From a virus, in IMG/VR virus record IMGVR_UViG_3300046011_011399, positions 1-22,440 of that record: a stretch of DNA of 22,440 bases; one strand, given 5' to 3'. The position numbers were made by a program, and so were the translations under genes. How positions within the stretch are numbered: the stretch's first letter is position 1; each line of letters opens with the position of its first letter. A model generated the notes under the pieces. That model did no database searches. It was given only the letters and a program-made list of their open reading frames with translations, and had not been told where the DNA came from. This document shows positions 1 to 22,432 of the stretch, piece by piece.

Positions 1-1511
1 GATCCATCATTACCCATTCCTTTATGTGACATATGATATAAAGGAACATCATAAATAGGAACTAAATCAAAACCATACAATACTGCTTTTTTCTGAGCGT
101 TTGTATCTACAAAGCAAGCATATAACATTGGTTCTTCATATCCCCTCATTTTATACCATATATTTTTAGTTGTAAGTTGAAAATCACCACAACAATTAAA
201 TATACTATATTTGTCATTTGGTGTTACTTGAGCTGGGAAATAGCGTGCTTCTGTAGTTTGGTCTAAATTCTTTCTATATTCATCTAAATTATCTTTATTA
301 GTTATTACATCATCATATTCAATATCTCTTCTACTAAATGTATAAAATGAATGTTTATTAGCTTTAGAAATAAAATTATAAAGTGTTTCTTTAGTTGGAG
401 GAATAATATCTGTAGTTGCTAATACAATCCATTCAGCATCAGTTCTACGTAATCCTAAATTAAATGATAATACACTATTACATATTTGTGCCTTATCATC
501 GTTATTAGACATCATCAAAGCATACTCAGGTGGAATAACAATGTGTTTTAATCTACCTGTTTTCGGAATCATATCTAATACATCATAAAGAAAACTATGA
601 GTAGGTGAATTCCAATCAACATAAATTACTTCATCAAATGTTTCTAACATTGTAGTTAGATGAATAGCAAAGCGTTCCTTTTCTTTATAACCATCATTTC
701 TACCAAATACGACAACAGCTGTTTTACCAGGTACTGTGGTTGGTAAGTTATATTTTGGTACTTCATCTTTATGAAAACAGAAAAAATTACCATTATCTAC
801 TACTTTGTAAATATAATATTCAAATTCTTCTAATGTTAAAGGACCAGTACAATCAGTTTTATTATCTAGAGGAGATACATCGTATACCTCATAATCAAAT
901 GATTTAAGTACATTCCAAAAATCTAATATTTCTTCTTGAGTTAAATCTCTAAATGCCTCAACCATCAACACCGGTTTATTTTTCTTGATTAATGGTGATA
1001 GTGTTTTTAATACTTCTTTATCAAATCCTTCAGTATCAGTTTTAATAAATTTTATTTTATCAAGTTCGTTACTGTGGTTTTCATTTAAAAATTCTAATAC
1101 GTTAATTCCCTCTACTTCAAGTTGATAACCATGAAATTGTTTGATTTGGTCTCCTAAATCTAATGAATCAAAAAATCCTCCATTCATTCCTGTTCCGAAT
1201 CTAGGATCTGAATAGTTAAAGGTGAATTTGCCTTTTTCTTTAGTACAAGCGTAATTATAAGGGATAATATTAAATAAAGGATTATTATCTGCTTTATATT
1301 TTAAGCTTTCAAATGTTTTTGGGTTAGGTTCAAAAGCAAGTACTTTACCTTTTTCACCAACACAGCTTCCAAATATTAGACTAAACCCACCAACGTGGGC
1401 TCCTATGTCTAGAACAATAGAGTCTTTTGGAATAACTTCAGATAATTTATTGTGTCTAAATTCAAAGACATCCATGTCTATTTTGTCGTCGGATATTATT
1501 TTTCTACTCAT
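1..1511 (-). CDS. FkbM-family methyltransferase fused to a glycosyltransferase-like domain (C-terminus beyond window)
   Basis: I translated this frame from the ATG at 1511; it stays open for 503 codons to the left edge, so the C-terminus is missing. The N-terminal half is an FkbM-type SAM-dependent methyltransferase: the SAM loop DIGAHVGGF (about 35-43), FEPN (60-63) and TDTEGFDKEVL (158-168) are all present. FkbM enzymes usually O-methylate sugars or related hydroxyls. From about residue 264 a second domain begins (VVVFGRNDGY). Its features resemble GT2-like proteins: an NLGLRRTDAEWIVLATTD stretch (351-368), CCGDFQLTT with RGYEE (440-460), and a C-terminal YHMSHK (492-497). Its start overlaps the upstream kinase stop in an ATGA, suggesting coupled translation. 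The methyltransferase call is firm. The GT call is an inference from motif layout, and its donor and acceptor are unknown. Confidence 0.8.
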   Translation of the reverse strand, partial: MSRKIISDDKIDMDVFEFRHNKLSEVIPKDSIVLDIGAHVGGFSLIFGSCVGEKGKVLAFEPNPKTFESLKYKADNNPLFNIIPYNYACTKEKGKFTFNYSDPRFGTGMNGGFFDSLDLGDQIKQFHGYQLEVEGINVLEFLNENHSNELDKIKFIKTDTEGFDKEVLKTLSPLIKKNKPVLMVEAFRDLTQEEILDFWNVLKSFDYEVYDVSPLDNKTDCTGPLTLEEFEYYIYKVVDNGNFFCFHKDEVPKYNLPTTVPGKTAVVVFGRNDGYKEKERFAIHLTTMLETFDEVIYVDWNSPTHSFLYDVLDMIPKTGRLKHIVIPPEYALMMSNNDDKAQICNSVLSFNLGLRRTDAEWIVLATTDIIPPTKETLYNFISKANKHSFYTFSRRDIEYDDVITNKDNLDEYRKNLDQTTEARYFPAQVTPNDKYSIFNCCGDFQLTTKNIWYKMRGYEEPMLYACFVDTNAQKKAVLYGFDLVPIYDVPLYHMSHKGMGNDG

Positions 1512-2293
1512 ATTGTTGATACTCCTGGTTTTTGTACTACGATGGTTGCACATTCTTGAGCAAATCTAATTGCTTTTTCTATATCTTTAGTTAATATAAA
1601 TTCAGATACTAGCCCAGACAAAAAAGTATCTCCGGCACCCGATACGTCTCTAATTTGTACCTTTTCAACAGGGTAAAATTTACCTTTATGTTGGCATCCT
1701 TTACTTGATAAAGTAATAATCATTTTATCTTCAATACCTAATTCTTGAATTGTATATTCTGTACGTTGATATTCAACATGATTAATTTTTATATAGGAGG
1801 CTTGTTTACACCAACTCCCTAATATTTTTTTAGTATCGATGAATACATTAGAATTATTTTTACAAATAAAATCTATATCTTCCTCTTCTAAAAATCCTTT
1901 ATCATAGTCACTAATTATAATAGCATCTATTTTAGTTTCTTTATAAATGTTATTAATAAGTTGATTTAAGATATTTCTATCTATTCTCTCTACCTTATCA
2001 TTATCATCGACACGTAATAATATTTGTCCTGATCTGTCATCAACATAACGTGTTTTAATAGGAGTAGGTTCCGGATTACATACAAAGTATGTTTGGATAC
2101 CTAATGCTTGTAAATTTTCTACTACATTACCTGCCATTCCCTTATTAAGGGTCCTATTAGTAGGATTAAACACAGGGACTGGGGCTTCAGGGGCTAATCT
2201 AACAGCGGTACCATACACAAATTCATCATAGCAGGTATCTCCAATAACCAGTATATTAAATTGTTCAAATTCTTTCTTTTTCAAATTGCTCAT
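1508..2293 (-). CDS. PfkB-family sugar kinase, HldE N-terminal (heptose-7-phosphate kinase) type
   Basis: This 261-residue protein has the RfaE/HldE kinase opening: ILVIGDTCYDEFVYG (14-28), RLAPEAPVPVF (32-42) and GMAGNVVENLQALG (52-65). The C-terminal PfkB signature DVSGAGDTF spans 216-224, with D222 as the expected catalytic base. In HldE this domain phosphorylates D-glycero-D-manno-heptose 7-phosphate at C1, on the way to nucleotide-activated heptose. It is shorter than a typical HldE kinase domain (about 320 residues). The Gly/Asp-rich segment normally found between the ALG motif and the TxxKxR stretch appears to be missing, so ALGIQTYF runs almost directly into PIKTRYVDD (78-86). The start overlaps the preceding nucleosidase gene by 29 nt. 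A HldE-C-like nucleotidylyltransferase lies far upstream at 16086-16490. No heptose isomerase (GmhA) or phosphatase (GmhB) is visible, so heptose is likely but unproven as the substrate. Confidence 0.8.
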   Translation of the reverse strand: MSNLKKKEFEQFNILVIGDTCYDEFVYGTAVRLAPEAPVPVFNPTNRTLNKGMAGNVVENLQALGIQTYFVCNPEPTPIKTRYVDDRSGQILLRVDDNDKVERIDRNILNQLINNIYKETKIDAIIISDYDKGFLEEEDIDFICKNNSNVFIDTKKILGSWCKQASYIKINHVEYQRTEYTIQELGIEDKMIITLSSKGCQHKGKFYPVEKVQIRDVSGAGDTFLSGLVSEFILTKDIEKAIRFAQECATIVVQKPGVSTI

Positions 2294-2843
2294 TAAGTAT
2301 AACTTTTACTTTTTCAAATCCAATTTTACAATTTTCTTTCCAATGTAAGTGATCACCACCATCAGATATCCATTTATATGAACTAAATTTAACATTATAA
2401 CGTTTACATACCTTTGCAATTGCAAAGCACTCCATATCAAATATACTACATTTTTCTATCATTTCCAAATAATATGGTGAATATTTTGATAATTGACTAT
2501 TATCATAAAAATAATCTGTAGTAAAGCAACTAATAGTAGAATTACTATCTAATACTATTTGTTTGCTATTAGCATCAAAAGGTGTTGCTCCATATTCATC
2601 TAAAGGGGTAGCATCTATATCTTGAAATACTTGTCCTACTTTAGCTATTTCTCCAACTGGTAATCTTAATGAGCCACAAGATCCAATATTAATTATTTCG
2701 TTATATCCTAAGTGAAGGGCAGACATAGCAGCCATAGTAGCATTTATTTTTCCAACACCACTGAATATTACTGGGTATTCTAGGATTTTACCTTGAATAT
2801 CTACTTCATCTGGGACAGCAACTATAAAGACTTTTTTATTCAT
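2265..2843 (-). CDS. 5'-methylthioadenosine/S-adenosylhomocysteine nucleosidase-like protein (nucleoside phosphorylase superfamily)
   Basis: This 192-residue protein has the MTA/SAH nucleosidase and PNP fold signatures: SGVGKINATMAA (28-39), the phosphate/ribose loop INIGSCGSL (51-59) with VGEI after it, FDMECFAIAKVCKRY (135-149) with the ribose-binding Met-Glu, and SDGGD (160-164), whose Asp matches the catalytic Asp acting on the purine. An acidic residue near the N-terminus (PDEVD, 11-15) could match the Glu12 region of E. coli MTAN. The family cleaves MTA, SAH and 5'-deoxyadenosine to adenine. It is about 40 residues shorter than bacterial MTAN. It follows apt with an 8-nt overlap, so adenine release and recapture are encoded side by side. 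A nearby FkbM methyltransferase and radical SAM enzyme are plausible sources of SAH and 5'-deoxyadenosine. Another nucleoside phosphorylase activity cannot be excluded. Confidence 0.75.
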   Translation of the reverse strand: MNKKVFIVAVPDEVDIQGKILEYPVIFSGVGKINATMAAMSALHLGYNEIINIGSCGSLRLPVGEIAKVGQVFQDIDATPLDEYGATPFDANSKQIVLDSNSTISCFTTDYFYDNSQLSKYSPYYLEMIEKCSIFDMECFAIAKVCKRYNVKFSSYKWISDGGDHLHWKENCKIGFEKVKVILNEQFEKERI

Positions 2844-3312
2844 ATTTAATTAAACTTTTTACATTTGTTGGACTATGAAGAAAAGTTAAGTCAATTAATA
2901 CTAATTTGCCAACTACAGTATATCCTGCCTTTTCACATAATTTTTCAGCTGCATTCATAGTACCACCAGTAGCATAAACATCATCTACAATTACAACTTT
3001 ACCTTTTCCTGGTTGTATTTCTAAAGTATCTTCTCCATATTCTAGAGAATATGTTTCTGAAATTATAGGAGGTGGTAATTTTCCTTTTTTACGGCACATT
3101 ACTAAACCACCATTTGCACTTGCTAGTGCAGAAGCAAATATGAACCCTCTTGAATCAATTCCAACCCAGTAATCAGGATATTTAACTAAATTTTTCATTT
3201 CTTCAATTGCATGAGGAAATAAAGGTGATTTTAAAAGTGGGGATACATCTTTAAATGAGATTCCTGGTTGAGGAAAATCAGGTATTTCGTTGATAAATTT
3301 TTTCCAATTCAT
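2836..3312 (-). CDS. apt: Adenine phosphoribosyltransferase
   Basis: This 158-residue protein carries the full set of Apt landmarks. DFPQPGISFKDVSPLL is at the N-terminus (12-27) and GIDSRGFIFA at 51-60. The flexible-loop RKKGKLP follows (74-80), then ETYSLEYGEDTLEI (86-99). The PRPP-binding motif VVIVDDVYATGGT spans 106-118. It converts adenine and PRPP to AMP in the cytoplasm. Bacterial Apt is usually 170-180 residues, so this is a slightly trimmed but apparently intact version. Its start ATG shares one base with the stop of the preceding RmlC-like gene (TAATG), and its end overlaps the nucleosidase by 8 nt. The Apt-nucleosidase pairing suggests salvage of adenine released from SAM by-products during infection. 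The family call is very secure; that role is inference from the neighbours. Confidence 0.93.
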   Translation of the reverse strand: MNWKKFINEIPDFPQPGISFKDVSPLLKSPLFPHAIEEMKNLVKYPDYWVGIDSRGFIFASALASANGGLVMCRKKGKLPPPIISETYSLEYGEDTLEIQPGKGKVVIVDDVYATGGTMNAAEKLCEKAGYTVVGKLVLIDLTFLHSPTNVKSLIKYE

Positions 3313-3797
3313 TAATGTGAATTTTTATCTCTCTTTGATAATATAGGGTTGTCTATTGGCCAATATATGTTAATTTTTGGATCTTTCCAATTTAAACTAA
3401 ATTGATCTTTAACATCAGGATAATCCCCAGGGTATGACCATTTATAGAAAAATGTAGCTTCAGAGCTAAGTACTAAGTGACCATTAGCAAACATAGGAGG
3501 TACTAATACTTGTTTCCTGTTTTTACCTGTTAATATAATTGAATCCCATGTTAGATAAGTATCAGAAGACGGTCTATTATCAACAACCACCAAGTATATC
3601 TCACCTGCTAAGCAAGTAATTAGTTTCCATGCTTTAGAATCACCATGTAATCCTCTTAAAACATTTTGTTTAGAAACAGATACTTTATCATGATTGAAAA
3701 CTAATTCGTGTTCTTCTTGTTTGAATAAGGTGTATAACTCACCTCTATAATCTTCAAACGAATCAGGTTGAAATATTTTTACTTCAGAAAATATCAT
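3312..3797 (-). CDS. RmlC-like NDP-4-keto-sugar 3- and/or 5-epimerase
   Basis: This 161-residue cupin has the dTDP-4-dehydrorhamnose 3,5-epimerase outline. DYRGELYTLF opens it (16-25), followed by NVLRGLHGDSKAWKLI (45-60). H51 is the expected catalytic base and K58 a substrate-contact Lys. VPPMFANGHLVLS spans 99-111, NWKDPKINIYWPI 136-148 and LSKRD 153-157, where D157 could be the Asp partner of H51. The family's usual FAHGF is FANGH here, so binding near the base-stacking region may differ. The family epimerises C3 and/or C5 of 4-keto-6-deoxy nucleotide sugars. It follows the ColD-type dehydratase with a 14-nt overlap, so its substrate may be a 3-deoxy-4-keto sugar, on which only C5 could be epimerised. 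The exact position acted on cannot be read from sequence. Confidence 0.8.
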   Translation of the reverse strand: MIFSEVKIFQPDSFEDYRGELYTLFKQEEHELVFNHDKVSVSKQNVLRGLHGDSKAWKLITCLAGEIYLVVVDNRPSSDTYLTWDSIILTGKNRKQVLVPPMFANGHLVLSSEATFFYKWSYPGDYPDVKDQFSLNWKDPKINIYWPIDNPILSKRDKNSH

Positions 3798-4965
3798 TGT
3801 TAAGAATATTAATTAATGTATCGATTTTTTCTTGTTCTAATGTTGGATAATTACCTACATACCAACCAAAATGGTGTACATGGTCTACATTTTTAAAATC
3901 ATCATAATTAATATTATAGTTCTTTTTAAAATAAGGTTGTCTTAATTGATTTCCACCTCCAGATAGACCTCTTCTAAACTCAATTCCTTTTTCTTTTAAT
4001 ATAGTTTCTAATTTATCTCTTAATTCAAATGAACCTTCTTTTAATATTACAATAAAAGCATAATTACATTGACCCTCCATCTCAAAATCAGTAATATACT
4101 TATTTGAATCAAGACGCTCTATAAAGTAATTAAAATTATATATCCTATTTTTATTATTATTATCTAATTTTTTAATTTGAGATAAACCAATAACAGCATT
4201 TAATTCAGTACTTCTAAAGTTATGTGCTGGGTGGAGGAATATAAAGTCTTTATTTAAGTCAGGGTTTTCATCAATGATTTGTTGCTTAAAATTATCATTT
4301 GTCATTTCTCTAGTCATACCATGAGAACGAAGTGCTCTACATACTTGATAAAAATGTTCATCATTAGTACAAATCATACCACCTTCAATTGTTGACATAT
4401 GATGAGCAAAGAAAAAACTAAAGTTAGAAGCAAATCCAATTGAACCTACTTTTTGTCCTTTAAATGTTACTCCATGTGATTCACAAACATCTTCAATTAA
4501 TAATATATTTTTTTCTTTACATAATTCAATTAATTCATCAGTTAAAGCATTAATACCAAGTACATGAGTAAGAAATATTGCTTTAGTTTGTGGGGTGATT
4601 GCTGCTTTTAATTTATCAATATCAAATGATAAATTCTTTAAATTAATATCTACAAATACCGGTTTAAAACTAGCAAATAATACTGATGATATATCTGAAA
4701 TCCATGTCAATGGTGGAACTATAATTTCACCTTCACCATGGATGTAGTTTAAAGCTAACATTGTTAATTCGTTAGCTGATGCTCCGGAATTGAGCATTAG
4801 GTTATATTTTGTACCTAGCCATTCTCCCCATTCATTTTCAAATTCAACTACTTTAGGTCCATTAGTTAATTTTGGAATTGGATGTTGCGCTAGGAAATCA
4901 ATAAGAGCTTTAATATCTTGTTTATCAATATTATCACTCATTAAAGGTAAATAAAAGTTATTCAT
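3784..4965 (-). CDS. ColD-type PLP-dependent NDP-4-keto-6-deoxy-sugar 3-dehydratase (DegT/DnrJ/EryC1/StrS family)
   Basis: I place the start at the ATG at 4965, just after the preceding gene's TAA and an AAATAAA run. A longer in-frame version from 5004 would add 13 poorly conserved residues. The resulting 393-residue protein is close to ColD in length. Fold type I motifs of sugar aminotransferases are present: NSGASANELTMLAL (59-72), PPLTWISDI (84-92) and LIEDVCESHG (156-165). The usual PLP-binding Lys is replaced by His in FSFFFAHHMSTIEGGM (182-197; H188/H189). This His-for-Lys swap marks the dehydratases (ColD, E1/RfbH) that remove the C3 hydroxyl rather than transaminate. No Fe-S cysteine cluster is visible, which favours ColD over E1. 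The preceding genes are an E1-like TPP pair and the following gene an RmlC-like epimerase, suggesting one pathway. Confidence 0.85.
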   Translation of the reverse strand: MNNFYLPLMSDNIDKQDIKALIDFLAQHPIPKLTNGPKVVEFENEWGEWLGTKYNLMLNSGASANELTMLALNYIHGEGEIIVPPLTWISDISSVLFASFKPVFVDINLKNLSFDIDKLKAAITPQTKAIFLTHVLGINALTDELIELCKEKNILLIEDVCESHGVTFKGQKVGSIGFASNFSFFFAHHMSTIEGGMICTNDEHFYQVCRALRSHGMTREMTNDNFKQQIIDENPDLNKDFIFLHPAHNFRSTELNAVIGLSQIKKLDNNNKNRIYNFNYFIERLDSNKYITDFEMEGQCNYAFIVILKEGSFELRDKLETILKEKGIEFRRGLSGGGNQLRQPYFKKNYNINYDDFKNVDHVHHFGWYVGNYPTLEQEKIDTLINILNNDIF

Positions 4966-4972
4966 TTTATTT

Positions 4973-5509
4973 TTATTTTTCTCCATAATAATCACCCCAT
5001 TCAACTAAAATAGTAGGGCGGTTGTCTGTTCTTTCATAAGCATATTGAAATGCTTCAAATATTTGATGTGGTTCATCTAATTTAATAATATCAACCCAAT
5101 CACACATAGCTTTAAACCCACCAGTAAAATCAGCAATATGTTGATGTTGTGGGTGAAGTGGACGTTGTGCTCCAATTGATGTTCTAATAATTACTTTAGG
5201 TGTATATCCACCACCTGACATTATTTTCATTTTATCTAAGTGATTAACTACCTGATTTGCAGCTAATAGAAGGAAATTCCAGCGTGGGTAAATCGAAATA
5301 GGAACAGTACCATTTAATGCCATTCCAATTGTCATTCCCATTTGCATATCCTCATTTACAGGCATTTCTAACATTTTAGATGGATTAACATCTTTAACTG
5401 TGTTAGTCATTGCTGTACCAGCATATGTTACTGCTTGTCCTAGAAAGAATGTATCTGGCTTTTCATTAAGCCAATCCATTGATCGTTTTAATTCGTCAAA
5501 GTATTTCAT
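4973..5509 (-). CDS. Half-size pyruvate dehydrogenase E1 beta/transketolase Pyr-domain protein (copy A)
   Basis: This 178-residue protein matches only the N-terminal pyrimidine-binding domain of E1 beta subunits; the C-terminal transketolase domain of the usual roughly 325 residues is absent. FFLGQAV (21-27) is the beta-strand start. EMPVNEDMQMGMTIGMAL (48-65) holds E53, the expected glutamate that activates thiamine diphosphate. PRWNFLLLAANQVVNHLDK (75-93) corresponds to the E1 beta stretch 'F..A.DQi.N..aK'. It starts 2 nt after the E1 alpha-like gene and almost certainly forms a heterodimer or heterotetramer with it. A close relative lies at 12262-12798 in the same alpha-beta order. No E2 or lipoyl protein is nearby, so a PDH complex is unlikely. 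Transfer of a two-carbon unit to a sugar is the inferred role. Confidence 0.85.
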   Translation of the reverse strand: MKYFDELKRSMDWLNEKPDTFFLGQAVTYAGTAMTNTVKDVNPSKMLEMPVNEDMQMGMTIGMALNGTVPISIYPRWNFLLLAANQVVNHLDKMKIMSGGGYTPKVIIRTSIGAQRPLHPQHQHIADFTGGFKAMCDWVDIIKLDEPHQIFEAFQYAYERTDNRPTILVEWGDYYGEK

Positions 5510-5511
5510 AA

Positions 5512-6117
5512 TTAGAATTGAATTCGCTTACCTGCCCCAGCATGAGGGTACTTGGTTTCGTATTGGTAATAAATTATTTTTCTTGTTTCGTTTTTAAAGT
5601 ATAAATCGTTGTTCCATACTTCTTTAGTAACAGTACAAACCGATTTACTATTATCTTCAATTACATAAGTAATAGGTAAATCATGATTAATAGCATATTT
5701 CCAATTTTCAAAAAATGCACCTGTTTCAGATGTCATATCACCTACAAAGCACCAAACATGATTTGTTTGACCTTTACGTTTAATATCTAACGCCATACCA
5801 GTTGCAATAGGAATATTACCTGTTACAATAGCTGAAGAATATACATTATATTCAGGATAACAAAGTGTAATTGATTTACCAGCTAATATATCTGCTTTTA
5901 CTTGTTCTTGAGGTACACCTTTAAGTAAACACTGATAATGTGAACGCCAAGTACAGAATACCCAATCTTCAGGTTGTACTTTTTTAAATATATCAATCAT
6001 TTGCTCTTCATTTCCATAGTATAAATGGATGGGAGCTTTAATCATAGCGTTATTAAAACACTCCGCTATATCATCTTCAAAGGCGATTAATTGTTCTTTA
6101 GTTAGAAGATTATTCAT
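5512..6117 (-). CDS. Half-size pyruvate dehydrogenase E1 alpha-like TPP-binding protein (copy A)
   Basis: This 201-residue protein is the thiamine-diphosphate diphosphate-binding partner of the beta protein that follows. WVFCTWRSHYQCLLKG (52-67) matches the E1 alpha 'YR.Hg..L.rG' region. The TPP/Mg motif is read as GDMTSETGAFFE (126-137) running to EDN (154-156), in place of the canonical GDG...NN. Typical E1 alpha is 330-370 residues, so much of the C-terminal part, including the usual phosphorylation-loop region, is missing. It ends YPHAGAGKRIQF, almost identical to the end of the second copy at 12802-13431, so that tail is probably functional. It overlaps the radical SAM gene by 8 nt. TPP binding is well supported; the donor (pyruvate or other) is unknown. 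Confidence 0.85.
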   Translation of the reverse strand: MNNLLTKEQLIAFEDDIAECFNNAMIKAPIHLYYGNEEQMIDIFKKVQPEDWVFCTWRSHYQCLLKGVPQEQVKADILAGKSITLCYPEYNVYSSAIVTGNIPIATGMALDIKRKGQTNHVWCFVGDMTSETGAFFENWKYAINHDLPITYVIEDNSKSVCTVTKEVWNNDLYFKNETRKIIYYQYETKYPHAGAGKRIQF

Positions 6118-7645
6118 TTTCTATTATTTTTCTTCTTAATTTAACTTTAAGCATTTTATTAATATTATCAACTGCTATTTGTCCAAACTTAGCTTTTACC
6201 TTTTCTAAGAAAGGAGTATATGAGTGATATTCATCAAATGCTTTATCTCTAAATGCTAATACTTTAGCTCCAGTTAATGTTTCTGTCGGCAATGGTAAAG
6301 TATCATACCCATGAAACGAGTAACCTTCATAAGTATCAGGTAATAAAACACCATTTAAAACAGCATTTTTATACAACTGACTTCCAGGTAGGGCCATTGC
6401 TGCATATGCATTCCATCCAAAGGTACATAATTCTTTTGATAGCTCCAAAGTTTTTTGCATTGATTCTTCTGTATCTCCAGGTAATCCAAAAATATAATTT
6501 GCCATTACTTCAATATCAGCCTTATGTACTTGCTGGATTACTTGGGAGATATCAACATCTTCAAATTTACCTTTAGATACTTCTAGTCTTACATCTTTAT
6601 CTCCACTCTCAATACCTAAAGCTAACCATTTAATACCAGCAGAACGTACTAATTTTAATAATTCAGGACGTTTAACTGTATCCACTCTTGAGTAAGCCCA
6701 CATCCTTAATTTTTCACCATACCCTCTATCTCTTAACATTTCACATAAAGGTACATAATATTTTCTATTTAATAAAAATAATTCATCTGTAATTTTAATA
6801 GTGTAAACTCCTAATTCAACTAACTTATCAAATTCTTTAATAATAAACTCAGGAGACCAATAACGCATAGCACTATAATTTCCTGCTACTCCAATTTCAT
6901 CTTCATCATTTCTATTTATGATATTAATCATACAGAAATCACAACCAAATTGACATCCTAAAGATGTTTGAATAGCAGCATAAGGTGAACGTTTATTCTG
7001 GTCATATTCAGCATGCCACATTGGAGCTCTATATAAGTCAAGTGGTTTTTCTTTCATTGGAAGTAAATCCCAAGCATAACCAGGGAGATCAATATCCATT
7101 CTATCGTTTGGTACTACCTTTTCAGCTCCATTCATTTTAGGAACTCCATTTTTTCTCCAAGCAATACCTTTAATATGATCTAAATTATTAATATCAATTA
7201 CGTCTTGTGCTAATACATTTCTAAGAGCATAAACACCTTCATTAGTAAAAGCAAAATCAATTGATGACTCTTCTTTAAGAGCTTTAACCGGAACCGCTTG
7301 CACGTATGATCCTACATAAGCAATAGGAATAGTTATACCTGCTTCTTTAATATAATTAGAAACATAAGTAGCACCACTCATATTTACAGTACCAGAATTC
7401 ACATTTTGTCCGTATACTACAAAACATATTAATCGTGGGTTTAATGATTTAATTCTATTTACAATTTCATCATTTTTTAATTGTTCTGCATTGACATCAA
7501 TAAGATTAACAGTGTAATTTACTGACCTACAAGATTGGGCAAGTAATAAAGCCCAAGTAGGGGGTTCAATAGCAGCATAATTATTAGCTAAATCTTGATA
7601 AATACCGGTAGCATTACCGGGTGCTATAAATAAAATATCTATCAT
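6110..7645 (-). CDS. Cobalamin-binding radical SAM enzyme (B12-dependent class B methylase type)
   Basis: This 511-residue protein has two domains. The N-terminal 150 residues resemble a B12-binding Rossmann domain: ILFIAPGNATGI opens it, AIEPPTWALLLAQ (25-37) follows, then VNLIDVNAEQ (46-55) and IAYVGSYVQAVP (108-119). No DxHxxG base-off motif is visible, as is common in this class. The radical SAM core starts with CQFGCDFC (231-238), whose C231, C235 and C238 bind the [4Fe-4S] cluster. LALGIESGD (about 340-348) and ANYIFGLPGDTEESM (about 382-396) are typical later elements. Many members methylate unreactive carbon or phosphorus centres, and others do rearrangements or ring closures. Here it precedes the E1-like pair of module A, so a sugar intermediate is a reasonable substrate guess. 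It would depend on host cobalamin and release 5'-deoxyadenosine. Confidence 0.85.
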   Translation of the reverse strand: MIDILFIAPGNATGIYQDLANNYAAIEPPTWALLLAQSCRSVNYTVNLIDVNAEQLKNDEIVNRIKSLNPRLICFVVYGQNVNSGTVNMSGATYVSNYIKEAGITIPIAYVGSYVQAVPVKALKEESSIDFAFTNEGVYALRNVLAQDVIDINNLDHIKGIAWRKNGVPKMNGAEKVVPNDRMDIDLPGYAWDLLPMKEKPLDLYRAPMWHAEYDQNKRSPYAAIQTSLGCQFGCDFCMINIINRNDEDEIGVAGNYSAMRYWSPEFIIKEFDKLVELGVYTIKITDELFLLNRKYYVPLCEMLRDRGYGEKLRMWAYSRVDTVKRPELLKLVRSAGIKWLALGIESGDKDVRLEVSKGKFEDVDISQVIQQVHKADIEVMANYIFGLPGDTEESMQKTLELSKELCTFGWNAYAAMALPGSQLYKNAVLNGVLLPDTYEGYSFHGYDTLPLPTETLTGAKVLAFRDKAFDEYHSYTPFLEKVKAKFGQIAVDNINKMLKVKLRRKIIENE

Positions 7646-11361: not shown

Positions 11362-12262
11362 TTTTACAATAATCAATAGTTTTTAAAATACCCATTTCTA
11401 TATTAAATTTAGGTTTTATTTTAGTTACCTTTATTATCTTTGAATTATCACAACACATATAAGGAGAGCTATTTTTTCTATTTAAAGAAGGATCAAATGT
11501 AATTATACTTTTACTATTTGTTAACTTATGAATAGTATTAACAATATCCTTTAATTTATATCTATACCCAGAAGATATGTTATAAACACCTGTATATTCA
11601 CTTAATATTAAATTATAAACTAATTCAATAAAATCATCTACATACAGATAATCAATAATTTTATTACATTCGTCTAATGTAATATCTTCGTCTTTTAAAC
11701 ATTTTCTTATAATTGAAGGTATTAATCTTGTTTTGACATCCCCAGGACCATAATTGTAACCTGGTCTTAACCACACCCATTCAATGTTATATGAGTTGCA
11801 AAGTAATTTACTATAGTTTTTAAGAGTTAATTTTGATATTCCGTATAAATCATCTGGTGATGGAGTTGAGAATTCTTCTACTGGATAGAGATGGTTTCCA
11901 TATTCTAGGATTGTTCCGAAGCCTACATATTTAGGTTTTTTAGGCAGGTCCTTAATCATTTCTATAAAGGCAATTCCCGGTTCTATATTATCATAGAATT
12001 GCTTTGCATCATTTATATCTTTATAACTATTACCTCCACTCCACCCGTTATATAATATTATGTCTGGGGTAAATGAGAATATTTTATCTTTAAATTTAGT
12101 TAGATCGTTTGCATACCCATAATCAAATTGGATTTGATCTAATATATCAGTAATGTTATTTGTTGAACCAGAGAATACATACAGAGAGTGACCTTCAGAT
12201 AATAGTCTTCTAATTAGATGAGAACCTAAGAATCCATTTCCCCCTGTTATTAATATATTCAT
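11351..12262 (-). CDS. Extended SDR NDP-sugar 4-ketoreductase/epimerase-like protein
   Basis: This 303-residue SDR has the NAD(P)-binding GGNGFLG (7-13), a substrate loop with NGWSGGNSY (72-80), and GFGTILEYG (114-122), which carries the Ser/Thr position as T117. The catalytic YGISK (Y140, K144) follows, then RPGYNYGPGDVKTRLIP (about 166-182). The replacement of the usual 'nlaa' loop by YNGWSGG is distinctive. Enzymes of this outline include CDP-abequose and paratose synthases, which reduce a 4-keto group after 3-dehydration, and general NDP-sugar epimerases. It starts where the module B beta gene's TAA shares a base with its neighbour's ATG, so it directly follows the dehydratase and TPP pair in transcription order. 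Reduction of a branched or 3-deoxy 4-keto sugar is the favoured inference, though not the only one. Confidence 0.72.
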   Translation of the reverse strand: MNILITGGNGFLGSHLIRRLLSEGHSLYVFSGSTNNITDILDQIQFDYGYANDLTKFKDKIFSFTPDIILYNGWSGGNSYKDINDAKQFYDNIEPGIAFIEMIKDLPKKPKYVGFGTILEYGNHLYPVEEFSTPSPDDLYGISKLTLKNYSKLLCNSYNIEWVWLRPGYNYGPGDVKTRLIPSIIRKCLKDEDITLDECNKIIDYLYVDDFIELVYNLILSEYTGVYNISSGYRYKLKDIVNTIHKLTNSKSIITFDPSLNRKNSSPYMCCDNSKIIKVTKIKPKFNIEMGILKTIDYCKNEL

Positions 12263-12798
12263 TATTTTGTTTTAGCATAATCAGCAAATTCAACTAAAAT
12301 TGTACTAACACCATCTTCACGTCCCAATGCTTTCTCATAAGCAGGTATTATTTGTTCTGGTTCGTGTAATTCAATTACTTCTGTATTTTTAAGCATAGAA
12401 CGAAAAGCATCTGAGAAATTACCTTTGTGTTGGCATTGAGGATCTACTGGATATTCACTTCCAACTGCTACTCTGATTATTACTTTAGGTTTGCATTTAC
12501 CATCAGACATAGTAATAAACTTATCTAAGTGGTTTACTATCTGGTCGGTTCCCATTAATAAGAAATTCCACCTAGGATATGTTGATACGGGAATTAATCC
12601 TTCAATAGCCATACCATTTGCTAATCCTGATTGTAGATATTCTGCCACTGGTAATTCTATTCTTTTATTAGATGGAAGATGAGACAATGAATCATATAAT
12701 CCAGTTCCTTCATATTCTACAGCCTGTCCTATAAACACTGTTTTAGGGTGCTCAGCCAAGAAACTCATTGCTCGTTTTAATTCATCAAAATATCTCAT
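12262..12798 (-). CDS. Half-size pyruvate dehydrogenase E1 beta/transketolase Pyr-domain protein (copy B)
   Basis: This 178-residue protein is the same length as copy A and clearly homologous. It shares the RYFDELKR start, FIGQAV (22-27), ELPVAEYLQSGLANGMAI (48-65) with the catalytic-type E53, and YPRWNFLLMGTDQIVNHLDK (74-93). As in copy A, the C-terminal transketolase domain is missing. Residues lining the centre differ (PVAEYLQSG versus PVNEDMQMG), so the two copies have probably diverged in substrate. It starts 3 nt after its alpha partner and is the last gene of the run dehydratase, RmlB, alpha, beta. It probably combines with the alpha protein to bind TPP between subunits. A role in adding a two-carbon unit to the sugar made by the two preceding enzymes is inferred. 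Confidence 0.85.
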   Translation of the reverse strand: MRYFDELKRAMSFLAEHPKTVFIGQAVEYEGTGLYDSLSHLPSNKRIELPVAEYLQSGLANGMAIEGLIPVSTYPRWNFLLMGTDQIVNHLDKFITMSDGKCKPKVIIRVAVGSEYPVDPQCQHKGNFSDAFRSMLKNTEVIELHEPEQIIPAYEKALGREDGVSTILVEFADYAKTK

Positions 12799-12801
12799 AT
12801 A

Positions 12802-13431
12802 TTAAAATTGAACCCTCATTCCAGCACCAGCATGGGGATATTTTTCATTTGTATATTGGTAATAATATAAATTCTTTTGTTTCAATATACCACCATTATA
12901 TTCAGATTCCAAATAATATGGTTTTATTCTATTCCAAATATCTGGAGTAGGAGTACAAACTGATTTTTTGTTATCTTCAACTATAAAGGTAATAGGTAAA
13001 TCATGATTTAGACTATATTTGTATGCTTCATGGAATGCTCCTGTTTCAGCACTCATATCTCCAACCCAACACCATACTCTGTTTAATTTATTTTGTAGTT
13101 TAAGAGCAAATGCTATTCCTGTAGCGATTGAAGGGATACCACCTACTATTGAGCTACATATAAATTTATACTCAGGTAAATTCATAACCATAGATTTACC
13201 TTTCATAATATTTTCTCTTATTACTTTTTTAGGAATGCCTTTAAGTAATCCTTGGTAATGGTTTCTCCAGGTGCAACATACCCAATCATTTTCAATATCA
13301 ATATCGTTAAATACTTCTATTATTAATTCTTCATTTCCAGAATATAAATGTATAGGAGCCTTAATTTCACCAGCGTTAAATGTTTCTCCAATTTCTGTTT
13401 CAAATGTTATTAATTCATCTTTAGTTACCAT
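12802..13431 (-). CDS. Half-size pyruvate dehydrogenase E1 alpha-like TPP-binding protein (copy B)
   Basis: This 209-residue protein is a diverged copy of 5512-6117. Shared blocks are IKAPIHLYSGNEE (23-35), WVCCTWRNHYQGLLKG (50-65), the TPP motif from GDMSAETGAFHE (124-135) to EDN (152-154), KSVCT (156-160) and the tail YPHAGAGMRVQF. An eight- to nine-residue insertion lies near 176-185 (SEYNGGILK) relative to copy A. Length is far below normal E1 alpha. It begins within the stop of the RmlB-type gene (7-nt overlap), tying it to module B. The two alpha copies look around half identical by eye, so the duplication is old or the copies were acquired separately. TPP binding is well supported; the reaction is inferred. 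Confidence 0.85.
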   Translation of the reverse strand: MVTKDELITFETEIGETFNAGEIKAPIHLYSGNEELIIEVFNDIDIENDWVCCTWRNHYQGLLKGIPKKVIRENIMKGKSMVMNLPEYKFICSSIVGGIPSIATGIAFALKLQNKLNRVWCWVGDMSAETGAFHEAYKYSLNHDLPITFIVEDNKKSVCTPTPDIWNRIKPYYLESEYNGGILKQKNLYYYQYTNEKYPHAGAGMRVQF

Positions 13432-14372
13432 ATAAATTTATTTTTATAGTATTTTACAATACCAGGTAATTCAGCATCAAATATTGCTGTTGGTTTCCAA
13501 CCTAATGCTCTTAATTTAGAATCATCTAAAGCATAACGAGCATCTTGTCCTATTCTAGAGAAAGACAAATCAACATATTTTTCTATATTATCATCTCCAT
13601 TATATTCTTTAACTATTTTTTTAACAGTATCATAGTTAGATTGTTCAAATCCACCTGCAATATTGTATATTTCATTTTTTATTCCTGATTCAATAATAGT
13701 AATGATAGCAGCAGCTGTATCAGCAGCATGTAACCAATTTCTAATTGGTGTACCATTATTATGAATTGGAATTTTTCTTCCTAAATTAAAATATTTACAT
13801 GATTTAGGAATTAGTTTTTCAACATATTGTCCTATACCATAATTGTTAGTTGGTCTAACAATAATATAAGGTACATTATAAGTTCTGCCCCAAGCCAAAA
13901 CTAGCATATCAGCAGCTGCTTTAGTTGCTGAATATGGATTAGATGGTTTAAGTAGGTCTGTTTCAATATGGGCGCCATTATCTATATCTCCATAAACTTC
14001 ATCTGTTGAGAAATGAAGTAAAGTGGGTGTTTTAGATGATTCATATCTAAAATTTCTAAGTAGTTCAAGTAGGTGATGAACCCCATTAATATTAGAATGA
14101 ACAAAATCGTCACTATTAGCAATTGAATTACCTACGTGTGTTTCAGCTGCTGTGTTAATGATATAATCACAATCATGAATAAATGGAATATTATTTATAT
14201 CACATTGAACAAATGAAAAATTCTTGTATTTATTAAATTCATCTAATAATTCAGTATTAGCAGCATATGTTATTTTATCTATACCTTTAACATACCATCC
14301 CTTTTCAAGACAAGCCCTAGTAACGTATGAACCTATAAATCCTAAACAACCAGTTACGTATACTACTTTCAT
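13425..14372 (-). CDS. NDP-glucose 4,6-dehydratase, RmlB type
   Basis: This 315-residue extended SDR shows the RmlB-like NAD-binding GCLGFIG (8-14), TAAETHVGNSI (74-84) and the catalytic triad region STDEVYG (122-128), where T123, D124 and E125 match the residues that act in dTDP-glucose 4,6-dehydratase. NPYSATKAAADM (145-156) supplies Y147 and K151, and VRPTNNYG (172-179) follows. It oxidises C4, removes water across C5-C6 and re-reduces, giving an NDP-4-keto-6-deoxyhexose. CDP-glucose dehydratases usually lack the DE pair, so a dTDP or UDP substrate is more likely. It sits between the E1/RfbH-type dehydratase (ATGA overlap) and the TPP pair. No RmlA-type nucleotidylyltransferase is in the window, so the activated glucose must come from elsewhere. 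Confidence 0.88.
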   Translation of the reverse strand: MKVVYVTGCLGFIGSYVTRACLEKGWYVKGIDKITYAANTELLDEFNKYKNFSFVQCDINNIPFIHDCDYIINTAAETHVGNSIANSDDFVHSNINGVHHLLELLRNFRYESSKTPTLLHFSTDEVYGDIDNGAHIETDLLKPSNPYSATKAAADMLVLAWGRTYNVPYIIVRPTNNYGIGQYVEKLIPKSCKYFNLGRKIPIHNNGTPIRNWLHAADTAAAIITIIESGIKNEIYNIAGGFEQSNYDTVKKIVKEYNGDDNIEKYVDLSFSRIGQDARYALDDSKLRALGWKPTAIFDAELPGIVKYYKNKFIW

Positions 14373-15733
14373 AGTTGAGATATAAATTTATTTAATACTG
14401 TTTCTATATAATCTGTTTTTTCTTTTGTTATTACAGGTGATGTACCTAAAAAGAAGGTATCTGTTGTAACTTTTCTTGCAACTGGGTATTTTGTAATTAC
14501 TTCTTGTGGATCCATAAGTCCTTCATAAGCGGGTTGAAGCATAATATTGCCTGCGAAGTAAGGTCTAGTTTGGATTTTATTTGCTTCGAAGAACTGGCAT
14601 ATATCAGAACGTTTAAATGGAGCTCCATCTTTAACTGTTATTGGGAAAGCAAACCAATCAACATCGGCTCCGGGTTGTGCTTCGTGTAGATGAAAATATT
14701 GTTTATGTTTACTAAAAGCAGCAAATAAATTTTTATAATTTTCTCTACGTTTAATTCCTATTTCTTCTAGTTTTTCTATTTGAACAAGACCAATTGATGC
14801 TTGTAACTCAATTGGTTTTAAATTATATCCAATTTCCTCATAAACGTATTTGTGATCAAATATTTCGTTTGGAAGTGAAGGTAACCAATTACTAAATCTA
14901 CAACCACATGATCCTTTTTCTAATAAGTTTTGTTTACCAATGCAATAACATCCTCTACCCCATTCTCTAAAACTACGAATAATACGTTCTGTGTTTAAAT
15001 CTTTCACAGCTACAAATCCACCTTCACCCATTGTAATATGATGTGCTGGGTAGAATGAGCAACTAGCCATTTCACCAAATGACCCTAGTGGTTTGCCTTC
15101 AAATGAAGATCCTAAAGCATCACAGCAGTCTTCTAATAGAATTAGTTTATATTTTTCAATTATTTCCATTAGTCGATTCATATTAGGTGGATTGCCTAAT
15201 ACGTGAGCGAATGTAATAATTTTAGCATCAGGATTACCAATACAGGCTTGTTCTACTTGATCTAAATCTAGATTAAGTGTATCTAACTCAATATCAACAA
15301 ATATAGGAGTAAATCCTAATTGAATAATAGGATTAATTGTAGTTGGAAATCCTGCTATTGGAGTAATTACTTTAGTTCCTTTAGGTAGATTTAAACCACG
15401 TTTAGAGGTTAAAGCCAACATCATTAATAAATTAGCACTTGAACCACTATTAGTTAATAAACCATATTCTTTATTAAATAACTTAGGAAACTTAGTTTCA
15501 AATTTATTTGCTTCGGCTCCTAATACTAACCATTCACTTAGTAATGTTTTAACAGCAGCTATGTATTCATTAGAATCAAAATAAGGACCAGCATATTGAA
15601 CCCAATCTTTACCTGCTTCCCAAGTTTTTTTAGAATGTTTTTGAGAAATATATCTATCTACTAAAGATAATATTTCTCTTTCTGTAATAGGGTTACTACT
15701 GTAGTTTTCTAAATCTTGATATAGTTCTTGCAT
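14369..15733 (-). CDS. E1/RfbH-type [2Fe-2S], PMP-dependent NDP-4-keto-6-deoxy-sugar 3-dehydratase
   Basis: This 454-residue DegT-family protein is close in length to E1/RfbH (about 437). NSGSSANLLMMLAL (95-108), LLEDCCDALGSSFEGKPLGS (199-218) and especially CSFYPAHHITMGEGGF (225-240), with H231/H232 in place of the PLP Lys, identify a 3-dehydratase. FREWGRGCYCIG (255-266) matches the 'DWGRDCWC' cysteine region that binds the [2Fe-2S] cluster in E1. C262 and C264 are there, but the next cysteines, C276 and C278, lie 11 or more residues on rather than 7, so an insertion alters the loop. HKYVYEEIGYNLKPIELQAS follows as in E1. E1 needs a reductase (E3) to deliver electrons, and none is encoded here. 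SpnQ is reported to work with ferredoxin/flavodoxin reductases, so host or phage ferredoxin may serve. Confidence 0.88.
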   Translation of the reverse strand: MQELYQDLENYSSNPITEREILSLVDRYISQKHSKKTWEAGKDWVQYAGPYFDSNEYIAAVKTLLSEWLVLGAEANKFETKFPKLFNKEYGLLTNSGSSANLLMMLALTSKRGLNLPKGTKVITPIAGFPTTINPIIQLGFTPIFVDIELDTLNLDLDQVEQACIGNPDAKIITFAHVLGNPPNMNRLMEIIEKYKLILLEDCCDALGSSFEGKPLGSFGEMASCSFYPAHHITMGEGGFVAVKDLNTERIIRSFREWGRGCYCIGKQNLLEKGSCGCRFSNWLPSLPNEIFDHKYVYEEIGYNLKPIELQASIGLVQIEKLEEIGIKRRENYKNLFAAFSKHKQYFHLHEAQPGADVDWFAFPITVKDGAPFKRSDICQFFEANKIQTRPYFAGNIMLQPAYEGLMDPQEVITKYPVARKVTTDTFFLGTSPVITKEKTDYIETVLNKFISQL

Positions 15734-15736
15734 AAA

Positions 15737-16108
15737 TTATTTTTGTGAATCACCTTTCCAAACACGATATGAGTCAGAATCAAAGTGAGTAGTTGATACT
15801 TCAAATACAATACCATCAGTTAAAGCAATTAATTGATGTGGTTGTCCTGGTCTTTGTCTTACTATATCACCTGGTTTGAGATGTTGTTCTATTGTGTCTG
15901 CAGTTTCAGTATCAATCCATCTGTATGTAAATTCACCTTTATCAACGTACCATGTTTCATCTTTAATCATATGGTAATGCATACTAAATTTACATCCTGC
16001 TTTGAATATGAGGAGTTTACCACAGTATTTATCATTATTTTCAATGATTAATTCTTCACCCCAACCTTTAGGTACTTTACAGCCCTCACAAACTATTGGT
16101 TTTTCCAT
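15737..16108 (-). CDS. Single-domain cupin, mannose-6-phosphate isomerase type II-like
   Basis: This 123-residue protein is one cupin barrel. KGWGEELIIEN (14-24), KLLIFKAGCKFSMHYH (31-46), DETWYV (50-55), LKPGDIVRQRPGQPHQL (77-93) and VFEVST match the C-terminal isomerase domain of mannose-1-phosphate guanylyltransferase/isomerases. The predicted metal ligands are H44, H46, E51 (the Glu of DETW) and H91. It might isomerise a sugar phosphate or bind an NDP sugar. It overlaps the nucleotidylyltransferase gene by 23 nt, an unusually long overlap that points to coupled expression, and precedes the 3-dehydratase by 3 nt. A role in making or trimming the sugar 1-phosphate activated by its neighbour is plausible. 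Small lone cupins are functionally diverse, so substrate and reaction stay open. Confidence 0.65.
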   Translation of the reverse strand: MEKPIVCEGCKVPKGWGEELIIENNDKYCGKLLIFKAGCKFSMHYHMIKDETWYVDKGEFTYRWIDTETADTIEQHLKPGDIVRQRPGQPHQLIALTDGIVFEVSTTHFDSDSYRVWKGDSQK

Positions 16109-16490
16109 AACTTAAGATTTTAGTTGTTGATTTACCAGGTATTTTTTCAAAGAATTTAACTTCAGGAATATGTTCAATTCCAATTATAGAATGATAACTG
16201 TAATCATCTCCTATAACCATTAAATCGGGACCATATTCTCTAATACTATTAACTAATTCTTCATTACTACTGAAAGTAACAACAGAATTAATATACTTGA
16301 TTGAATATAAGAACTCTACTCTGTCTTTCAAAGTATTATATGGTCTATCTTTTCCTTTTTTTTCTTTAATTCTTTCATCTGTGTCTATTCCTACTCGAAC
16401 ACTACCAAATAAAGCAGCATATTCAAGTAGTCGGATGTGACCTAAATGAAGGATATCAAATGAACCATTTACCCATACTTTCTTTACCAT
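16086..16490 (-). CDS. Sugar-phosphate nucleotidylyltransferase, HldE C-terminal/TagD type
   Basis: I start this at the ATG at 16490 (MVKKVWVNGSFD, 134 residues); an upstream TTG at 16502 is less likely. NGSFDILHLGHIRLLEYA (8-25) contains the HxGH nucleotide-binding motif (15-18). VRVGIDTDERIKEKKGKDRP (31-50) resembles the HldE 'SD.Sv..lKG..RP' stretch. VIGDDY (92-97) and the C-terminal KSTTKI (120-125) match the family's ISTTxI-type motif. HldE-C adenylylates heptose 1-phosphate to ADP-heptose, and TagD makes CDP-glycerol. The kinase at 1508-2293 is of HldE-N type, so the two may be separated halves of a HldE-like activity lying 14 kb apart. The overlap with the cupin suggests that the sugar phosphate is further processed. 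The nucleotide and substrate are uncertain. Confidence 0.8.
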   Translation of the reverse strand: MVKKVWVNGSFDILHLGHIRLLEYAALFGSVRVGIDTDERIKEKKGKDRPYNTLKDRVEFLYSIKYINSVVTFSSNEELVNSIREYGPDLMVIGDDYSYHSIIGIEHIPEVKFFEKIPGKSTTKILSYGKTNSL

Positions 16491-16888
16491 GATATTTCCC
16501 AATCTTTAAAGTCAGCTGCTAAGCAGTCAATTTTATAGTCTTTACGCCCACCCATTATCTCTTGAATTTGGTTTTTAGCCGTATTGCGAATACCATTTAA
16601 TCCATGAGTTAATGCCAATGCATTTGGACCTGCTTTACCTGATCTAACATTTGATTCGTTATGCCAGATGTGTAAGTTCATTTGAGATAATATTACAATT
16701 GCCCTAATTGTTTCAGCAGTAATAGGTTCCTTACTCTCATTTAGATGTAGCTGAATATCATGTACTATATCAGCTATTTCAGCTGCATATTCTGCTTTGT
16801 GTTCTGTAATAAACACTTCTTTTAATTGTGTAATACTCAATCTATCGATTAATTCACTTAATGTTGGGAGATATTTTCTATTACTCAT
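16484..16888 (-). CDS. Uncharacterised helical protein in the glycan locus
   Basis: This 134-residue protein is predicted to be mostly helical and was not recognised as an enzyme. LPTLSELIDRLSITQLKEVFI (7-27) resembles, faintly, the 'GELIDKLSI' opening of small DUF4254-like proteins of LPS and phage loci. The following EYAAEIADIVHDIQLHL (33-49) and LSQMNLHIWHNESNVR (67-82) continue the helical pattern. No catalytic motif, metal site, signal peptide or membrane segment is visible. It starts in an ATGA overlap with the GT2 gene and ends overlapping the nucleotidylyltransferase by 7 nt, so it travels with the sugar genes. It could act as an accessory or regulatory partner of a neighbouring glycosyltransferase or kinase. 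The DUF resemblance is tentative. Confidence 0.6.
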   Translation of the reverse strand: MSNRKYLPTLSELIDRLSITQLKEVFITEHKAEYAAEIADIVHDIQLHLNESKEPITAETIRAIVILSQMNLHIWHNESNVRSGKAGPNALALTHGLNGIRNTAKNQIQEIMGGRKDYKIDCLAADFKDWEISW

Positions 16889-21818: not shown

Positions 21819-22092
21819 TTATTATGTATTCTTGTTTAATTTTTTCTAAATATAAAATAGCATCCATGTGTTCTTGCTTTGCATGCTCAATCCAGTCTAA
21901 TAAATCTAAATCAGTACGATCTAGATCAACACCGTATTTTGCTTTACCTTTTTTAGAACGTTCAATAAATTGGTCAATAATTGAACTTACTATCGAATCT
22001 GGTTTAAATGGTTGTGGAGTATCTTCTTGTTGTTTTTCCATTTCAATTAAATACTCTCTATATGCTTTTGAGCTGTCTATATACTTACCCAT
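21793..22092 (-). CDS. Small MazG-like (nucleotide pyrophosphohydrolase-like) phage protein
   Basis: This 99-residue protein has SIVSSIIDQFIERSKKGKAKYGVDLDRTD (33-61), with the 'R...G..KYG' pattern, and LLDWIEHAKQEHMDAILYLEKI (64-85). There HAKQEHMDA recalls the helix pair of small all-alpha nucleotide pyrophosphohydrolases, which place acidic residues in an ExxE...ExxD arrangement. The match is partial: only E75 and D78 fit clearly. Such proteins may remove unwanted nucleotides during phage replication. It lies between the clamp-loader and nuclease genes, overlapping the former by 8 nt. It could alternatively be a non-enzymatic relative. The T4-like phage association is clear from its neighbours; the activity is not. 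Confidence 0.55.
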   Translation of the reverse strand: MGKYIDSSKAYREYLIEMEKQQEDTPQPFKPDSIVSSIIDQFIERSKKGKAKYGVDLDRTDLDLLDWIEHAKQEHMDAILYLEKIKQEYIISGSQEKVI

Positions 22093-22432
22093 TAATCTGA
22101 TTTATTATGTTTTCTAGTTCTTCTTTAGGAAGCATATTAATATATTCTTTAGCTTCATGTTTGCTAACTTCATAATAAGTAGCAACTGCTTCTACTTGAT
22201 CAGCTTTATATTCTTTTTTATTCTTAGCTTTAATGTATTTAAGGTACTTATATTGTTTAGGAATAAGGTCCTTATATAAATTATAAAGGTATTCACCCTT
22301 CATTTGCCAAGTATTCTTTTGAATATAATTAACTACTTCACAGTAATCAGGATCCATACTTAAATAACGGTTGATCATCCAGTTATTCCAACCTTCATCA
22401 CCTAAGTAGGGTCCTTTATTTGTAGTATCCAT
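22085..22432 (-). CDS. 62: T4 gp62-like sliding-clamp-loader small subunit (start near window edge)
   Basis: This 115-residue helical protein follows the gp62 pattern of T4-like phages. NRYLSMDPDYCEVVNYIQ (21-38) parallels the T4 'NALSQFPECMPAVYAMN' segment. YLYNLYKDLIPKQYKYLKYIKA (48-69) parallels the 'FNYLMAAVPRGKRYGKWAK' region, and VATYYEVSKHEAKEYINMLP (83-102) the 'LAKRYQVNTNDAINYKSIL' region. In T4, gp62 and the ATPase gp44 load the sliding clamp gp45 at primer ends. It is shorter than T4 gp62 (187), nearer the size I would expect in marine relatives. The ATG at 22432 is taken as the start, but only 8 bases remain upstream, so an earlier start cannot be excluded. This is the best evidence for a T4-like phage; gp44 would be expected just beyond the edge. 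Confidence 0.65.
   Translation of the reverse strand: MDTTNKGPYLGDEGWNNWMINRYLSMDPDYCEVVNYIQKNTWQMKGEYLYNLYKDLIPKQYKYLKYIKAKNKKEYKADQVEAVATYYEVSKHEAKEYINMLPKEELENIINQING

Follow-up and report, generated by a model that had tools for sequence, protein, structure and literature searches.

Two overlapping genes of a T4-like phage encode an adenine phosphoribosyltransferase (APT) and an adenine nucleosidase with the MTA/SAH-nucleosidase fold (NUC). In our main reading, to which we give a probability of about 0.6, the pair clears the SAM by-products 5'-deoxyadenosine and SAH and recycles their adenine, and it represents a bacterial bicistron recruited by phages. NUC would release adenine from two SAM derivatives, 5'-deoxyadenosine and S-adenosylhomocysteine (MTA is possible as a further substrate, though it has no local source), and APT, coupled to NUC by an 8-nt overlap, would join this adenine to PRPP to give AMP. 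Together the two enzymes would relieve product inhibition of the B12 radical-SAM enzyme and the FkbM methyltransferase of the same operon while saving adenine. Inhibition of radical SAM enzymes by 5'-deoxyadenosine has been described (PMC8102628). The computed evidence comprises the fold, the catalytic residues, the gene overlap, its recurrence and the proximity to SAM enzymes; from adenine nucleoside to adenine to AMP, the predicted route appears well supported by the protein sequences and a structure model, and what we infer is the substrate of NUC, the reaction direction and the purpose of the pair. The same chemistry had been put forward in a sequence-only reading of this DNA. It is the best-supported reading in view of the fold, the catalytic residues and the pairing, but neither FkbM nor the glycan locus is supported as the reason for the pair.

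Gene layout of the window

The window, i.e. the whole stretch of DNA that was analysed, comprises 22,440 bases of an IMG/VR virus record, and every relevant gene lies on the minus strand. Its source is a T4-like phage: a clamp-loader profile matches at 22085-22432, and both Gp23 capsid and terminase genes are present in the long relatives G002 and G003. The features used below are as follows.

3..1553, partial at the window edge, minus: FkbM-family methyltransferase domain plus C-terminal half (PF05050 1.2e-14; TIGR01444 87 bits)
1508..2293, minus: PfkB-family kinase, heptose-7-phosphate-kinase (RfaE domain I)-like (PF00294; TIGR02198 139 bits, below cutoff 345)
2265..2843, minus: NUC, MTA/SAH-nucleosidase-fold adenine nucleosidase, 192 aa (PF01048 2e-12, structure model, invariant residues)
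2836..2843, minus: APT/NUC 8-nt overlap ATGAATAA (sequence; recurrence in 46 loci, several contigs counted twice)
2836..3312, minus: APT, adenine phosphoribosyltransferase, 158 aa (NF002636, PDB profile search, invariant residues)
3312..3797, minus: RmlC-like dTDP-sugar 3,5-epimerase (PF00908 2.9e-40)
3784..5004, minus: DegT/RfbH-like PLP enzyme, sugar dehydrase type (PF01041; PRK15407 209 bits, below cutoff 423; AHH motif)
4973..5509, minus: E1-beta-like TPP-enzyme subunit (PF02779 1e-9)
5512..6117, minus: E1-alpha-like TPP-enzyme subunit (PF00676 3.3e-14)
6110..7645, minus: B12-binding radical SAM enzyme, 511 aa (PF04055, PF02310, CxxxCxxC)
16086..16502, minus: RfaE-domain-II-like nucleotidyltransferase (phrog_7878 1.2e-33; PF01467 3.5e-15)

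The overlap of APT and NUC noticed in the sequence-only reading is confirmed, with both ORFs open at the coordinates listed and sharing 8 nt, so that the stop of APT falls within the start of NUC; this overlap probably couples their translation. Downstream of APT, the order is NUC, the PfkB kinase gene and the FkbM-domain gene. NUC had been described as sitting beside the FkbM gene, and the two do share a locus, but they do not adjoin: the PfkB gene (1508-2293), which that description left out, lies between them and overlaps NUC by 29 nt. The FkbM domain is N-terminal in its gene and scores 55.3 bits with Methyltransf_21 (PF05050, cutoff 22.7). The B12 radical SAM gene is indeed found upstream of the pair, with both domains over cutoff (PF04055, 67.3 bits, cutoff 29.5; PF02310, 38.2 bits, cutoff 32.1) and the CxxxCxxC motif present as CQFGCDFC at residue 231; four genes (RmlC, DegT/RfbH-like, E1-beta and E1-alpha) intervene before APT. 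We presume that this enzyme is the source of 5'-deoxyadenosine. The AHH motif of the DegT/RfbH-like enzyme has His in place of Lys, and the RfaE-domain-II-like nucleotidyltransferase is likely the partner of the PfkB kinase.

Identity of the two proteins

APT passes the curated APRT model NF002636 (171.2 bits, cutoff 125) and scores 142.7 bits with TIGR01090, below that model's cutoff of 185.85. When the PDB was searched with a profile of 11 APT relatives, the top 20 matches were all APRT (best 1e-41). Residues R55, K75, K78, E91 and Y92 are invariant among the 11 relatives, and we take them to be the equivalents of human APRT R67, K88, K91, E104 and Y105; APT also carries the PRPP motif VVIVDDVYATGGT, and a profile alignment to human APRT was made. 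Compared with the known Apt (NF002636), the window APT keeps the catalytic Glu-Tyr, the PRPP motif and the base-loop residues, but it is a short form whose flexible loop contains a PPP run, and its gene overlaps that of the nucleosidase. With a score over the curated NF002636 cutoff and its catalytic residues kept, the earlier assignment as an adenine phosphoribosyltransferase stands.

NUC matches PF01048 with 47.4 bits (cutoff 25.1) but falls below every curated MTAN cutoff (TIGR01704, 32.6 bits against 73.8; NF004168, 52.1 against 129), and it is therefore filed as an MTAN-fold nucleosidase rather than as an MtnN equivalog. The AF2 model of NUC has a pLDDT of 87.7. In the VIA structure comparison its best match is 5cce, with Z 19.4 and an rmsd of 2.9 over 181 residues, and all 50 of the structural neighbours listed are MTAN-type; a Foldseek search supports the fold as well. 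A PDB search with the NUC family profile likewise returned MTAN-type proteins in 39 of 39 matches. Futalosine or aminodeoxyfutalosine nucleosidase is a further name given to some of them, and thus the fold by itself does not fix the substrate.

The catalytic set E13, F112, M137, E138 and D161 is invariant across 17 aligned rows; E13 was placed by hand, and the other four residues were aligned to solved MTANs by profile. These residues presumably correspond to E. coli MTAN Glu12, Phe152, Met173, Glu174 and Asp197. NUC shares the fold and catalytic residues of MTAN (MtnN/Pfs, PF01048), and its nearest PDB sequence by phmmer is Brucella melitensis 4pr3. It differs from solved MTANs in being shorter (192 aa), only ~17-25% identical, phage-borne and coupled to APT. 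From sequence and model we infer that NUC is an adenine-releasing MTAN-type hydrolase; its earlier description as MTA/SAH-nucleosidase-like agrees with the MTAN fold, the conserved catalytic residues and the PF01048 match.

Recurrence, contexts and origin of the pair

Profile scanning of viral contigs gave 107 relatives for APT and at least 509 for NUC; 80 of each set were kept. The 8-nt APT-to-NUC overlap is seen again in 46 fetched loci, a count in which several contigs figure twice. In 34 of 93 NUC sequence groups, the immediate neighbour of NUC is APT; the pairing is thus not due to chance. The locus types include window-type glycan loci, a second glycan type, and loci with nrdA-nrdB, clamp-loader, DNA polymerase or thyX-like genes; in another type, the sugar module around APT has PfkB, cupin and nucleotidyltransferase genes and lacks NUC. 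The locus labels PhoH, ThyX, uvsX and BMP were read from the sequences by the author and are not Pfam-based. Nucleotide-metabolism neighbours are frequent, and plain purine salvage fits as well. The emphasis that had been placed on the glycan locus is weakened, as the pair, or NUC by itself, is often found in nrdAB, clamp-loader, DNA polymerase and thyX-like contexts, and the pair also sits beside DNA-methylase genes.

The link between APT and NUC survives rearrangement, as seen from the constant overlap, from five loci with the reversed order NUC-APT (L111, L116, L117, L121 and L142) and from bacterial genomes. In a genome scan, APT was also present in 21 of 80 NUC loci, nearly always adjoining NUC and in some cases divergent. 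Among cellular sequences, the pair has its nearest relatives on two Verrucomicrobiota contigs, L247 and L248, where a stand-alone APT-NUC bicistron (71% identity to the window for APT, 55-57% for NUC) lies among chromosome-like genes. Phage and bacterial sequences are interleaved in a NUC tree made by a quick method and having many weak branches. Given the bacterial bicistrons and this interleaving, sequence comparison makes it most likely that the pair is a bacterial adenine-salvage bicistron, not specific to glycan loci, that phages acquired on more than one occasion. A match in Acinetobacter phage MD-2021a was rejected as phage evidence; the contig has ileS, lspA, ribF and argA. The two steps are also separable: NUC occurs without APT in G009, G010 and G016, and APT without NUC in G017-G021 and G031, all of these records having radical SAM.

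Association with SAM enzymes

Radical SAM (PF04055) is found in all 16 window-type records. FkbM (PF05050) is found in 10 of the 16 and lies in the locus in nine, and FkbM was accordingly rejected as the reason for the pair; the whole FkbM gene is a fusion and, as a search query, over-counts FkbM. As a control, 23 relatives were chosen by an unrelated nuclease gene. These gave no NUC and no full-length APT match, only three weak partial APT-profile matches, and their radical-SAM ORFs are all of 263-299 aa, none exceeding 300 aa. Because the pair and the radical SAM gene are in one operon, this control shows linkage and not function.

A second NUC branch provides a further view of the association. 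There, a radical-SAM gene (recognized by profile or CxxxCxxC motif) is the immediate neighbour of NUC in 22 viral contigs, overlaps of 4-14 nt between the two are common, radical SAM sometimes lies on both sides, and 14 of 15 records searched have 4-21 PF04055 genes. By Pfam, radical SAM flanks NUC on both sides in L157 and adjoins it, just under cutoff, in L126. The bacterial contig L253 has the order NUC-radical SAM-APT. DNA methylases also occur beside or near NUC (D12 in L132; N6/N4 in L143 and L105).

Proximity was evaluated by within-locus permutation over groups defined at 85% identity, counting any radical-SAM or methyltransferase gene as a SAM enzyme. Such an enzyme is at most one gene from NUC in 20 of 93 groups (10.8 expected, p=0.001) and at most two genes away in 29 (18.8 expected, p=0.0005), p values that are optimistic since the groups are related to one another. 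Radical SAM alone is not enriched within two genes of NUC (14 of the 93 groups, 13.3 expected); a radical-SAM gene adjoins NUC in 13 groups. A smaller, earlier permutation gave 17 of 65 groups within two genes (9.4 expected, p=0.005), and for 31 of those 65, none of the six SAM-enzyme families modelled turned up in the flank that was fetched. Among 17 records that are not window-type and have both APT and NUC, 12 have a radical-SAM match; the other five (G022, G023, G032, G037 and G042), one of which (G032) has FkbM, are all 25-56 kb fragments. These counts do not show the pair in a phage free of SAM enzymes, though such phages may exist. The proposed tie between the pair and SAM enzymes is partly supported, by radical SAM in the 16 window-type records and the 22 adjoining contigs, by DNA methylases near NUC and by the enrichment of SAM enzymes taken together, but weakened for FkbM, which is in the locus of only nine of 16.

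Alternative roles of the pair

The pair could instead serve general purine salvage, with NUC freeing adenine from any adenine nucleoside of host breakdown, APT making AMP from it for phage DNA synthesis, and the SAM neighbours incidental. Its position beside nrdA-nrdB (annotated in C48C1) and, in many phages, beside clamp-loader, DNA polymerase and thyX-like genes would fit this role, as would the stand-alone bicistron in bacteria. We nevertheless consider it unlikely: the neighbours of NUC are MTAN-type rather than broad nucleoside-phosphorylase, the order rSAM-NUC-rSAM occurs with overlapping genes, 13 NUC groups have an adjoining radical-SAM gene, and SAM enzymes are enriched next to NUC.

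A sugar-forming role, in which PfkB would phosphorylate NUC-released 5-deoxyribose or S-ribosylhomocysteine for a glycan pathway or a salvage shunt, is very improbable. PfkB overlaps NUC and comes after it in most window-type loci, but the domain it resembles most is the heptose-7-phosphate kinase domain of RfaE, and an RfaE-domain-II-like nucleotidyltransferase is encoded in the same locus; furthermore, no PfkB follows NUC in L004 and L005, and PfkB occurs without NUC in L035-L041. Even less probable is counter-defence, with NUC destroying a host-made adenine nucleoside that serves as an immune or stress signal: a 2'-5' RNA-ligase/Acb1-like gene two genes from NUC in L143 weakly favours it, against the biosynthetic context of the window operon and the pairing of bacterial NUC homologues with APT.

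Relation to known systems and wider meaning

Clearance of SAM by-products by NUC and APT has precedents. In bacteria, MtnN serves radical SAM enzymes by disposing of 5'-deoxyadenosine (PMC8102628, PMC10986504), so that an inhibitory by-product is removed, as proposed here. That disposal is known in cells, whereas the window version is phage-encoded and linked to APT rather than to a deoxyribose salvage shunt. In the Lake Baikal phage population VP_139, radical SAM proteins and methyltransferases are encoded along with an MTA/SAH nucleosidase and a SAM synthetase, and phage support of the SAM cycle was already proposed in that study; in the parts of the report consulted, no APT, glycan operon or gene overlap is described (PMC7678222). 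We found no paper on a phage APT-nucleosidase pair in the open-access library searched; PMC7785012 was rejected as a source on APT, its sole mention of the term glossing Pta in an acetate context. As far as that library shows, two features are new, the coupling to APT within a glycan operon and the recurring overlap with radical-SAM genes.

If the main reading is correct, phage nucleosidases would have a testable reason, namely clean-up of by-products that slow the phage's own radical-SAM and methyl-transfer enzymes. The radical-SAM/nucleosidase overlap in the second branch would turn a guess about one operon into a general, falsifiable rule on phage SAM chemistry, and with NUC relatives in hundreds of phage contigs, the SAM-clearing job would not be special to sugar synthesis. 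More tentatively, at slightly below even odds, many aquatic phages may run a private SAM economy, in which a coupled nucleosidase keeps the phage radical-SAM enzymes turning over.

In such an economy, the nucleosidase would act with or without APT and sometimes with a flavin reductase, and some phages would supplement radical-SAM arrays, which reach 21 genes in G075, with SAM synthetase, cysteine-desulfurase-like and PRPP-synthetase genes of their own. In the records with radical-SAM arrays, Gp23 and Terminase_6N were not found, and viral status is taken from IMG/VR; for G075, it is also indicated by a polymerase of family B together with a clamp-loader-like ATPase.

Sugar chemistry of the window

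In both DegT-family proteins of the window (3784-5004 and 14369-15733), the PLP lysine of the aminotransferases is replaced by AHH, and both therefore look, by sequence, like RfbH/ColD-type sugar dehydrases. Two E1-alpha/beta TPP pairs are also encoded:

4973-6117, first pair
12262-13431, second pair

Together with the two dehydrase-like proteins, these pairs suggest a branched deoxysugar as the product.

Gene neighbourhoods of NUC and APT

The neighbours of NUC, the predicted adenine nucleosidase, and its relatives in the fetched loci (L-numbers) include:

L016:9023-9757, FAD/NAD-binding reductase (Pfam), directly after NUC
L105:8549-9274, FAD/NAD-binding reductase (Pfam), directly after NUC
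L143:9046-9576, in a DNA-polymerase locus, 2'-5' RNA ligase/Acb1-like protein lying two genes away from NUC
L253:3935-6008, NUC, radical-SAM/SPASM-like gene and APT (adenine phosphoribosyltransferase) as consecutive genes of a bacterial contig

In L105, the reductase is followed by an N6/N4 DNA methylase. L007, L010 and L019 have a gene of comparable size at the corresponding position, a candidate for such a reductase.

In the viral-classed contigs G073-G087, NUC is ringed by up to 21 radical-SAM (PF04055) genes. Gp23 and Terminase_6N were looked for in these contigs and not found. One of them, G075 (L330, L401-L404), also has genes for SAM synthetase, PRPP synthetase and a cysteine-desulfurase-like aminotransferase of class V; a clamp-loader-like ATPase is encoded there too, as is a family-B DNA polymerase.

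One locus, L029 (CAKLQH020000009.1), is filed as Acinetobacter phage MD-2021a; because ileS, lspA, ribF and argA are present, it looks like bacterial chromosome despite that filing.

The marine phage loci L076-L097 have APT and lack NUC; in many of them, APT adjoins a putative BMP-type lipoprotein, 2OG oxygenase and DNA polymerase (names assigned by eye).
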